The notes under the pieces: model-generated
What the model was told of the DNA's origin: nothing
Database searches by the model: none
The model's input: the letters and a program-made list of their open reading frames with translations, nothing else
In this document: in pieces, positions 7,460-27,101 of the stretch
Layout of the letters: every line of letters begins with the position of its first letter
How positions within the stretch are numbered: position 1 is the stretch's first letter
Translations under genes and position numbers: made by a program
Assembly (NCBI RefSeq): GCF_016743215.1
Contig: NZ_VRZC01000022.1
Span: 1 to 35,743, forward strand
Source of the DNA: Geminocystis sp. GBBB08
GTDB lineage: Bacteria; Cyanobacteriota; Cyanobacteriia; Cyanobacteriales; Cyanobacteriaceae
Reading direction: 5' to 3'
Length of the DNA stretch: 35,743 nt

Positions 7460-7676
7460 CTAACCCTCTTTTGTCAAACTCCGCAAACACTTGCAATTTA
7501 TAGATTCTGCAACTGTTGTAGATCAATCGATCGAGGTCATATTTAATAATATGAAATAAATCGAAACTTTAAATTAGTAAATTTGACTCTGTAGTATGCT
7601 TTAATCTTTAGTTATCAAGCTGTTTGAAAATATTTAATAATAGTTAAAATCGGAAACTGACAAAAGAGGGCTAATT
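7460..7676. mobile_element. MITE-like element A (~215 bp, TA-flanked)
   Basis: The left end (from 7461) reads TAACCCTCTTTTGTCA and the right end (7657-7672) is its reverse complement with one mismatch. Similarity continues inward to CAAACTCCG on the left and CGGAAACTG on the right. Both ends carry a terminal TA, as expected for Tc1/mariner or IS630-type elements that duplicate TA. The interior of about 170 bp is AT-rich and has no coding frame. I infer a non-autonomous element; no transposase of this family is in the window. Confidence 0.55.
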
Positions 7677-23171: not shown

Positions 23172-25091
23172 CTAATTTTTCATTGCTAAGGATGGTTTTT
23201 CCGCAAAAAATGAGTCTAAAATCTCCTCAGAAATTTGACGACTGGTTAAGCCTAAATCAGCAATAGATTCGTTAGGTGTAGCATGATCTACTAAAATATC
23301 AGGAACACCAAAACGTTTTAATTTAGCCCCAATACCATTATCTAATAAGGCTTCGGCCACGGCTGAACCAAAACCTCCTATTAAAGAGCCTTCTTCTAAA
23401 GTTACAACTTTACCGATTTTTTCCGCTAAAGGTAAAATTAATTCAGTATCAAGGGGTTTGACGAAACGAGCATTGATTACAGTGGCATCTATACCATGTT
23501 CGCTCAAAATTTCTGCCGTTTGCATCGCCGTATTAACCATTGTGCCGTAACCGACTAATAATAAATGATCACCGTTGCGTAAAATTTCTCCTTTGCCAAT
23601 TTCTAAGGCTTCCCAACCTTCTTCAGCTAAAGGCACACCTAAACCATTCCCCCGAGGATAACGCATGGCGATGGCACTGTCTGTATAATTAATACCTGTC
23701 ACCATCATACGCTGTAATTCAGCTTCGTCTTTAGGTGCCATGATGACAAGATTAGGGATACAACGAAGATAAGATATATCATACATCCCTTGATGAGTCG
23801 GACCATCAGCACCTACAATTCCCGCTCTATCTAAACAGAAAAAGACTGGTAACTTTTGAATACACACATCATGAATAATTTGATCATAAGCTCGTTGTAA
23901 GAAAGTTGAATAAATTGCTACGACAGGACGCATTCCCTCACAAGCCAAACCGGCGGCTAAAGTTACAGCGTGTTGTTCGGCGATACCGACATCAATATAT
24001 TGCTTAGGTAATTTTTGTTGTAACTTATCTAAACCGGTACCAGTAGCCATTGCGGCAGTGATACCAATAATTTTGGGGTTATTTTGGGCTAAAGTGGTGA
24101 GAGTATGGGCGAAAACCTTAGAATAACTCGGAGGCTTGGGCTTTGTGGAGGGTATGGGTTTACCCGTAGTTAAATTAAACGGACTTTGAGCATGATAACC
24201 GACTTGATCCTTTTCCGCGAGAGCGTAGCCTTTACCTTTTACGGTAATAACATGAACTAATACAGGTCCTTTTACCTTATGTGCCTTATTAAAAGTATCA
24301 ATTAATTCTTTGAGATTATGACCATCAATAGGACCAAAATAAGTAAAACCTAATTCTTCAATTACCGCTCCCACTTTAGGCATGGCAAGACGTTTCATCG
24401 CTTCTTTGAGGTTTTTCATTTCAGGAGAAAGATTTTCACCATCACCAAAGAAAGGAAAATGTTTGAATTGCTCTTCTAAATTATCGGTGATAAATTGGAT
24501 AGGATCAGATAAACGAACTTTGTTCAAATAACGAGAAATCGCGCCCACATTGGGGGAAATCGACATTTCGTTATCGTTTAACACTACCATCAAATTAGTA
24601 TTGGGTAAATGCCCAGCGTGGTTAATAGCTTCTAATGCCATACCGCCAGTTAATGCACCATCACCGATAATCGACACTACTTTGTAATTTTCGCCCTTGC
24701 TATCTCGTGCTAAAGCCATACCTAGTCCCGCAGAAATGCTTGTGGAGGCGTGTCCGGCTCCAAAATGGTCAAATTTGTTCTCTGAGCGTTTTAAGTAACC
24801 AGCAACGCCGTCTTTTTGCCGTAAAGTGTGAAAATTGTAGTATCTTCCTGTTAATAATTTATGAGGGTAAGCCTGATGTCCTACATCCCAAAGTACTTTA
24901 TCATGATCTAAATCAAGGGTTTGATATAAGCCAATCGTTAATTCTACCACTCCTAAACCAGGTCCTAAATGCCCCCCTGTAGCGGCGATGGTTTCTAAGT
25001 GTTTTTCTCGTATTTGTTGAGCAATATCTTCTAACTGTCGGATAGATAAACCATGTAATTGATTCGGGTGGGTTATTTCACTTAAGTGCAT
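23172..25091 (-). CDS. dxs: 1-deoxy-D-xylulose-5-phosphate synthase
   Basis: The thiamine-diphosphate enzyme that condenses pyruvate with glyceraldehyde-3-phosphate, the first and usually flux-controlling step of the MEP isoprenoid pathway. Its 639 residues fit the family. Visible features are [25 protein letters not shown], the ThDP/Mg motif [18 protein letters not shown] ending in LNDNEMSI, the transketolase Asp-Arg region [17 protein letters not shown], and the C-terminal [18 protein letters not shown]. dxr, the next pathway step, lies upstream on the same strand with only a 642-base non-coding spacer between them. Confidence 0.97.
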
Positions 25092-25260
25092 TCTCTTAAA
25101 CTTCCTCTACTATTAGTTAACCTAATTTTAATACTTTCGATCCCAAGTTCTTTATTTTCTCTTAATGATTTTAACATTTTTAGTTATAGAAAAAATATTG
25201 ATTTCCGACAAATGATTTAGGACTGCTATATACTTAGTAAGGGTTATAACTGTTTGCAAT

Positions 25261-25542
25261 AATCTGTAGAAAATATGCTAGAATTTACTAAGACCAAAAG
25301 CCAAGGACTTTTAATTACTGGTGAAAATCCAAATTTACCACGTCACTGATGTTAAGTCAGATACCACTGGGAGTAAATTAAACACATATTAATTAAAACG
25401 AGGTATTTAATGAGGTTTAACTAAAAGTAAGGTCAAATGCTTTTGATAGCCATGATCTAAAGGCATTGCCGTTTATGCCTTGAATGCCACCGTTAAAAGT
25501 GGATAAACCTTTCAAAACATTAATTTTGTTTTTCTACAGATT
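25261..25542 (+). ncRNA. Candidate structured RNA or non-autonomous element between dxr and dxs
   Basis: AATCTGTAGAAAA (25261-25273) is the exact reverse complement of TTTTCTACAGATT (25530-25542), a 13-bp closing helix 282 bases across. Inside are two separate domains. Domain 1 is closed by AATTTACT/AGTAAATT (25282-25289 with 25372-25379). It holds AAAAG/CTTTT (25296-25300 with 25308-25312) and TGGT/ACCA (25319-25322 with 25337-25340). Domain 2 is closed by AGGTTTA/TAAACCT (25413-25419 with 25504-25510). It holds AAGGCAT/ATGCCTT (25460-25466 with 25475-25481) and CCAC/GTGG (25487-25490 with 25499-25502). Domain 1 carries GGTGAAAATCC, GTCACTG and AAGTCAGATACC in the order of a cobalamin-riboswitch core. 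The strand shown follows that resemblance. There is no protein frame of useful length. A mobile-element relic is the main alternative. Confidence 0.5.
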
Positions 25543-25559
25543 TTAATGAACGGTGATAG

Positions 25560-25733
25560 TTAATAGGGAATAGAGAATAGAGAATAGTTAATAAGCCAGT
25601 TTACATCTAGGTTTACTTACTGGTGAAGGTAGGCAAGGGGCAAGGGGCAATGGATAAGTTTCCTAACTCTAAATTCTAAATTCTAAATGGCGTTGCTGAA
25701 TTAATCAGAAGGTTATAAAAATCAATGGTTTAG
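25560..25733. repeat. Cluster of short tandem repeats downstream of dxr
   Basis: This stretch holds imperfect AATAGAG units (25562-25590), a CCAGT...ACTGG hairpin (from about 25598), GCAAGGG units (25630-25650) and CTAAATT units (25667-25690). A GGCGTTGCTGAATTAA string (25689-25704) follows, like those at the ends of cyanobacterial repeats. I see no gene in it. Confidence 0.5.
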
Positions 25734-26903
25734 TTAAATCAATACTGATAACTTATTTAATACCTCTTGTCTTGCCCACCCGTCAGCATATAAAATATCA
25801 TCTAAACTAGGTTCGGATATATTTTGTGATGAAAAGCGATCGCAAACAGACTCAATTAAATGAGGAATATCAAGGAAAGTAATTTTTTCTTGTAAAAATA
25901 AAGCTACAACTTGTTCATTAGCCGCATTTAATACCGCAGGAAGACAACCTCCAGTTTTTCCTGCCTCATAGGCTAACTGCATACAAGGATATTTATGGTG
26001 ATCAGGTTCACGGAAGGTTAAACTGCCTACTTTCACCAAGTCTAAAGTTTCCCAATTAGTAGGAATGCGATGGGGATAAGATAAAGCATAAAGTAACGGT
26101 AAACGCATATCTGCCCATCCTAATTGAGCTAATACTGATGTATCTTGTAACTCAATCATTGAATGAATAATGCTTTGAGGATGAATAACTATTTCAATAT
26201 TATCATAATCTAAACCAAATAAATAATGAGCTTCAATAACTTCTAAACCTTTATTCATCAGAGTTGCCGAGTCAATAGTGATCTTTTGTCCCATAGACCA
26301 GTTAGGATGTTTTAAAGCATCTTTAACCGTTACACTCGCCAATTTTTCTACGGGCAAATCACGAAATGATCCACCAGAAGCGGTTAAAATAATTTTGCGT
26401 AAACCTTTTTCTGGTAAACCTTGTAAGCACTGAAAAATCGCTGAATGTTCAGAATCGGCAGGTAATAATTTTGCTCCATATTCTTTTATTAAAGGTAACA
26501 CTACCGGGCCTCCGGCAATCAAAGTTTCTTTATTAGCTAAGGCAATATCTTTTCCTGCTTTGATAGCGGCAATGGTTGGCAATAATCCTGCACATCCAAC
26601 GATACCAGTAACAACACTTTGCGCATTTCCATAACGGGCAACTTCGCAAATGGCTTCTTTTCCTGCTAATAAAATTGGTTTCTCAGGTAAATTAGCAATT
26701 GCTTCATGTAATTCTACTAATTTAGCTTCATTTTGAATAGCAACAATTTGGGGTTTAAACTCCCTGATTTGTTCGCCTAAAAGAGTAATATTATTTCCAG
26801 CGGCTAATCCCACAACTTGAAAGCGATCGGGATAATCTCTTACTATATCTAAAGTTTGAGTACCGATAGAACCGGTTGAACCTAGTATAGAAATTAGTTT
26901 CAT
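25734..26903 (-). CDS. dxr: 1-deoxy-D-xylulose-5-phosphate reductoisomerase
   Basis: Converts DXP to 2-C-methyl-erythritol-4-phosphate with NADPH, the second MEP step. Visible features are the Rossmann loop [18 protein letters not shown] at the N-terminus, NKETLIAGG, the metal/substrate loop [25 protein letters not shown], and [28 protein letters not shown]. The frame extends to an ATG at 26987, but those 28 residues have no family counterpart; the ATG at 26903 puts the NADPH loop in its usual place (389 residues). That start follows directly on a (TA)7 run, with no Shine-Dalgarno sequence, so translation may depend on an unstructured leader. Confidence 0.96.
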
Positions 26904-26916
26904 ATATATATATATA
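26902..26916. repeat. TA dinucleotide run at the dxr start
   Basis: A pure 15-base alternating AT tract abuts the dxr start codon on its 5' side and shares two bases with it. Length changes would alter only the untranslated leader. It may be part of an AT-rich promoter or leader. Confidence 0.7.
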
Positions 26917-27101
26917 ATTTTATTTATCAATATCTTATCACCTGAGTGAAGAGCTTTTACAACGCTTTTCAGATGAATAAGGCACATTTTTTATTTCTCG
27001 CTCATGACGCAAAGACACTCTTTGGGAGAAGAATGAGGAATGAGGAATGAAGAAACTTACCTATTGCCCATTGCCTCGACTTGATGCAAGAAGTCTAATG
27101 T

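Follow-up and report, generated by a model that had tools for sequence, protein, structure and literature searches.

The spacer between dxs (23172-25091, minus strand) and dxr (25734-26987, minus strand), both assigned by Pfam, in the 35,743-nt stretch of Geminocystis sp. GBBB08 that we analyzed (the window) very probably carries a non-autonomous IS607 miniature at 25242-25553, composed of a left end, a non-coding middle and, at the right end, the omegaRNA of a lost tnpB gene. The element is about 310 bp in size and has neither of the protein genes, tnpA and tnpB. Since a tnpA gene of its own, which defines the autonomous IS607 members, is absent, there being no ORF for it in 25242-25553, we term the element a non-autonomous derivative, and its designation as IS607-derived, non-autonomous and omegaRNA-bearing is firm. 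Its ends, its relatedness to other elements, the insertion of a sister element at a GG core and the structure of the omegaRNA are all established by sequence comparison. What is novel here is an omegaRNA-only IS607 miniature element, a variant of the known IS607 elements; a search of the open-licence literature found no tnpB-less IS607 omegaRNA elements, which by itself does not prove their absence.

Ends of the element and its relatives

The body of the miniature, 308 bp between two GG cores (25244..25551, plus strand), was delimited by comparing its ends with those of IS607 elements and with empty sites, and the junctions in the window read AAG-GG-TTATAAC ... AATGAAC-GG-TGATAG. On the left the junction is GGG (25241..25243, plus strand), in which the core GG takes up 25242-25243 and the first G would come from the target site, as a candidate TAM, comparable to the GGG of ISXfa1; an identical GGG marks the left end in C60, C151, G004, G300, G028, L245, L251, L253, L255 and L257 (C, G and L denote contigs, genomes and loci). 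On the right, the core GG (25552-25553) is followed by a fixed flanking T at 25554 (25552..25554, plus strand), and GGT is present in 10 of the 10 right ends aligned and in further ones too. The IS607 element ISXfa1 ends at GG, and there the right-flanking base is fixed and forms part of the scaffold of the guide RNA (PMC10711439).

Both ends of the window element are related to those of a near-complete, TnpA-encoding IS607 element in G028, the left ends being GGGGTATTAACTGTTGTAAACAAATTGTAGAAAATTGTAG in G028 and GGGTTATAACTGTTTGCAATAATCTGTAGAAAAT in the window. The TnpA of this element matches NF033518 with 170.7 bits (cut-off 110), its reading frame having an interruption near the end, and the TnpB matches NF040570 with 166.5 bits (cut-off 100). 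The IS200/IS605 group, with its Y1 transposase, was our first reading, and it was dropped for IS607 in view of the serine TnpA remnants and the near-complete IS607 TnpA found 5' of related tnpB genes.

Parts of the element recur elsewhere, as would suit a mobile sequence. Contigs C60 and C151 of the same assembly as the window start with mutually identical sequence of about 126-127 bp, which is 89% identical to window positions 25240-25365, and these copies diverge into unrelated flanks at the left GGG junction. The right part of the window element is matched by contig C104 of the same genome and by the related genomes G002 and G013, and the left part by G004. Throughout the same and related genomes the copies lie beside unrelated genes, with breakpoints at GGG. 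A search of related genomes for the span had been proposed in an earlier, sequence-only reading of this DNA, which listed the core of a non-autonomous mobile element among its options; the dispersed copies and the IS607-type ends bear that option out, while a conserved position beside dxs or dxr is rejected.

The mode of insertion could be read from a tnpB-less sister element in G300 and G242, which measures 323 nt from GGG to GGT and is absent from G284, G213 and G236. Its empty site is GGTAGGGTACTATATC, and the filled site reads TAG-GG-TTGAAG on the left and GAGAAC-GG-TACTA on the right, i.e. the exchange took place at a single GG, in the IS607 mode, without target-site duplication beyond the core. 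The junctions of the window copy are laid out in the same way, though for this copy no empty site was found; the plasmid and phage collections held no match to the window element, and the element copies contained no tRNA-like sequence. Measured from GGG to GGT, the tnpB-less elements with both ends recognised are of similar size, 314 (window), 323 (G300), 346 (L257) and 356 (L251) nt, and several tnpB-bearing elements measure 1541-1554. As a separate observation, the tnpB-bearing loci L245, L252, L253 and L255 have a near-constant 1541-1544 bp, the same end types and no tnpA match, and possibly make up a class with tnpB only within this lineage.

The inverted repeat, the fold and the left domain

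The sequence-only reading took the spacer for a candidate structured RNA, starting from a perfect 13-bp inverted repeat, AATCTGTAGAAAA (25261-25273) and TTTTCTACAGATT (25530-25542), that encloses 282 bases, and from two inner closing helices, one of 8 bp on the left (AATTTACT/AGTAAATT, 25282-25289 and 25372-25379) and one of 7 bp on the right (AGGTTTA/TAAACCT, 25413-25419 and 25504-25510). All three helices were recovered at these positions, and the 13-bp repeat forms part of a longer, imperfect one of 29 nt (76%; 25245-25273 and 25530-25558). The stretch also folds better than shuffled sequence on both strands, with -64 kcal/mol on the plus strand against -48.9 +/- 5.1 for the shuffles (z -2.98) and a z of -2.88 on the minus strand. 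The notion that every helix is nested and none in conflict was overstated, since 17 inverted repeats of at least 7 nt overlap in the stretch and many of them are mutually exclusive. Over the whole window the 13-bp repeat is by itself weak evidence: about 0.6 such repeats with a span of at most 300 bp would be expected in a first-order random sequence of that extent against 2 seen in the AT-rich window, the one described here and a second perfect one at 7464-7670. The chance of a 13-bp repeat inside one 320-bp stretch, about 0.25%, makes it unusual there.

The outer helix had been proposed as an RNA stem, and fits transposon-end motifs better. Its left arm (25261..25273, plus strand) lies 17-18 bp inside the core as a left subterminal motif, a candidate for TnpA binding, and C60, C151 and the IS607 element of G028 have related motifs in their left ends. 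The right arm (25530..25542, minus strand), a subterminal motif 9 bp inside the core, includes TTTTCTACARRTT, which is conserved in the right ends of tnpB-bearing elements whose left end is more than 1 kb off. In the G028 element the related arms AAATTGTAGAAAA and TTTTCTACAAATT have more than 1 kb of genes between them. Because related arms occur more than 1 kb apart, two paired end motifs are the better interpretation of the outer stem. For IS1535, the TnpA motifs have been placed from about 20 bp inward of the left end and, on the other side, at a distance of 10-28 bp to the right junction (PMC6188088). From their sequence and placement, the 13-bp arms fit paired recombinase motifs that TnpA would bind.

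Most of the left domain is a conserved non-coding segment of the left end (25244..25365, plus strand), the one shared with C60 and C151 at 89% identity and, with weaker similarity, with G004 and G300/G242; it has no Rfam match, and the domain recurs in other tnpB-less copies. The non-coding middle is likewise kept between copies, as the window, C60, G004 and G300 align around AGCCAATGACTTTTAA and AAATCC, and it was not seen in G028. Two other tnpB-less elements, L251 (488-843, minus strand) and L257 (1844-2189, plus strand), have in their middles a common non-coding stretch of 209 nt (72%) with the invariant core TAAAGCCGCCGTGAAATCGGATGGTAAGCAGTACTTTATCT. This shared stretch had no Rfam match, and their left module was found neither in viral contigs, searched with an exact 33-mer, nor in plasmids.

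The omegaRNA at the right end

That the stretch has no coding frame was correct in so far as no ORF of at least 60 aa lies within 25242-25553, but the element does contain a remnant of the 3' end of tnpB, 19 codons reading KVRSNAFDSHDLKALPFMP plus the stop (25424..25483, plus strand; E=6.9e-4, 69% identity to the TnpB of G013). The match in G013 is the 3' end of an internally deleted TnpB gene (Pfam PF07282, NCBIfam TIGR01766), preceded by a C-terminal serine TnpA remnant that was read by eye. Other TnpBs share the C-terminus of the remnant, and in order-level searches the same segment closes further tnpB genes.

Judged by its adjacency to tnpB and by covariation, the right half of the element is the omegaRNA (reRNA) scaffold of TnpB (25420..25554, plus strand), and the covariance model R1 matches it with E=1.2e-17, a value to be read with the window as one of the training sequences. 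In an alignment of ten right ends up to GGT (A1), the sequences have in common a 5' stem, the GGCAT/ATGCC hairpin and two more stems, the second and the third, the third lying close to the end. The hairpin of the window, GGCAT-TGCCGTTT-ATGCC (25462..25479, plus strand), has two stem pairs with double changes. In the second stem, TTGAA/TTCAA with an inner hairpin CCAC/GTGG (25480..25515, plus strand), double changes affect three of the five outer and three of the five inner pairs, the inner hairpin being present in three sequences only. The third stem is degenerate in the window. In addition, the loop at 25468-25474 (GCCGTTT) could pair with 25548-25554 (GAACGGT) on the plus strand; this pairing is available in 10/10 sequences, with one outermost pair missing in one, and is almost invariant, so the sequences are consistent with a pseudoknot between the loop and the terminal GAACGGT without proving it. 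If the architecture of the IS607 reRNA (PMC10711439) applies, the guide segment would be GATAGTTAATAGGGAATAGA, host DNA just past the right end (25555..25574, plus strand).

The 36 pairs of the structure are formed in 94.7% of cells across the ten right ends, compared with 86.3% in shuffles (none of 500 as high), and slid versions of the structure reach at most 46%, a comparison biased against them as the structure was partly derived from the sequences tested. For that same reason it is the double changes and the R1 model test that carry weight. Double changes occur in 14 of the 36 pairs; the seven sequences other than the window, G002 and G195 give a similar picture, with double changes in 7 of 16 pairs. 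Among 391 genomes of the order, 71 gave R1 matches, in 39 of 150 genera. At 30 of the 39 non-training loci inspected tnpB runs into the match, at three there is a C-terminal remnant only, and six are without tnpB, G300 and G242 among these six being one site. The Rfam covariance scan of the window stretch gave no family match, and at permissive thresholds the window and its relatives returned chance matches only and no omegaRNA family; the RAGATH-18 RNA was not among the matches at E<=10 for the window or E<=1 for the relatives. The idea of a structured RNA is thus retained for the right part, an omegaRNA with covariation, but not for the left domain, which is without covariation support.

Possible mode of action and relation to known systems

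A pathway can be envisioned in which an IS607 TnpA serine recombinase, acting in trans, would pair the ends through the subterminal motifs of the 13-bp repeat, and the paired ends would exchange strands at GG. If transcribed, the right half would fold into a guide-RNA scaffold with the host DNA past the right end as its guide, and TnpB in trans could then cut emptied sites, such that retention of the element would be favoured. TnpA binding, transcription, TnpB loading and any present activity of the window element are steps that we infer, and an active hitch-hiker guided in trans is what we hypothesize. It is possible, though rather doubtful, that there is a stable class of omegaRNA-only IS607 elements of ~310-360 bp that hitch-hike on the TnpA and TnpB of others, with a working guide RNA of their own, retention through TnpB in trans and a left module that is a new functional RNA or DNA part.

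The probability is about evenly balanced that the window element is instead a dead relic, i.e. an internally deleted IS607 copy with fossil ends and a fossil omegaRNA and with neither mobility nor RNA function at present, which differs from our best explanation solely in present activity. The degenerate third stem points to such decay, whereas decay has spared the first hairpin, the second stem, the pseudoknot partners and the terminal GGT; C104 and G002 resemble further decayed copies, yet the two left-end copies in C60 and C151 have stayed identical over their about 126-127 bp, and the other tnpB-less copies are similar in length with conserved middles. Also in keeping with a relic, no match to a sigma-70-like promoter was found inside the element, and the assembly of this strain, itself broken at repeats, showed no cognate tnpB that is intact. 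An RNA acting on dxs or dxr as a cis-regulator, a leader or an antisense transcript, as the sequence-only reading had offered, would suit the location between both genes and the fold better than shuffles, but the right part corresponds to the 3' terminus of tnpB genes and the copies stand beside unrelated genes. Moreover, in the relatives examined dxs is not adjacent to dxr, with the exception of Nostoc mirabile (L028), and no such element was seen next to their dxr, the region after dxr in G002 having been read and found to be without one. Given the dispersed copies, the neighbourhood that is not conserved and the lack of an element after dxr in G002, the idea of dxs/dxr regulation was abandoned as highly improbable. 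We regard as equally remote a left domain that is a cobalamin (B12) riboswitch-like RNA, a resemblance seen by eye in the window and C60 copies, the latter reading GGTGAAAATCC ... AAGTCAGAAACC; in neither copy did cmscan up to E=10 report a cobalamin family, and the relatives G004 and G300 have not retained the motif.

PATEs, or MITE-like derivatives of IS200/IS605, are short and protein-less, keep their ends and use a transposase in trans. The miniature IS607 element resembles them in being short and protein-less with retained ends, but its parent is an IS607 element, with a serine recombinase and exchange at GG, and its right end is a structured guide RNA. The reRNA of ISXfa1 is ~150 nt long, with three stem-loops and a required pseudoknot (PMC10711439). 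With the IS607 elements of this type, which carry TnpB and reRNA (PMC10711439), the window element shares GG at both ends, a left GGG, the fixed right-flanking base and a guide-RNA scaffold of ~135-150 nt with stem-loops at the right end, the pseudoknot being a candidate here; it differs in having no tnpA or tnpB and consisting, at ~310 bp, of ends and omegaRNA only, and the scaffold of the related tnpB genes overlaps with their 3' ends. The IS607 TnpBs of the ISFba1 type use an reRNA derived from RAGATH-18 that lies outside the coding sequence, with AGGAG or GAGGG as the reported TAMs, and only 64% of these RNAs adjoin a tnpB (PMC11061315). Here too an IS607 TnpB guide RNA lies by the right end and not always beside tnpB, but the window omegaRNA matches no Rfam family, RAGATH-18 included.

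Mini-elements that lack the transposon genes and keep a guide-RNA gene provide a natural test of TnpB guide RNAs in trans, and of whether selection retains the RNA for its own sake. R1 describes a cyanobacterial omegaRNA family absent from Rfam, with which element boundaries can be placed and natural guides read. Recognition of the element moreover accounts for an intergenic structured RNA that one might otherwise mistake for a regulator of the MEP isoprenoid pathway.

Some further sequences were noted around the element and in the same genome. Directly to its left, window positions 25200-25236 belong to another dispersed repeat (approximately ATTTCCGACAAATGATTTAGGACTGCTATA), with similar copies across genomes of the genus, and to its right positions 25556-25595 are of a simple-repeat-like type, GGGAATAGAGAATAG, which has numerous matches dispersed over the genus. 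Contig C188 (L183, 1-1800), from the genome that holds the window, carries a tnpA/tnpB pair of the IS607 type, in which the TnpA frame is apparently interrupted and the right end is removed by the end of the contig.
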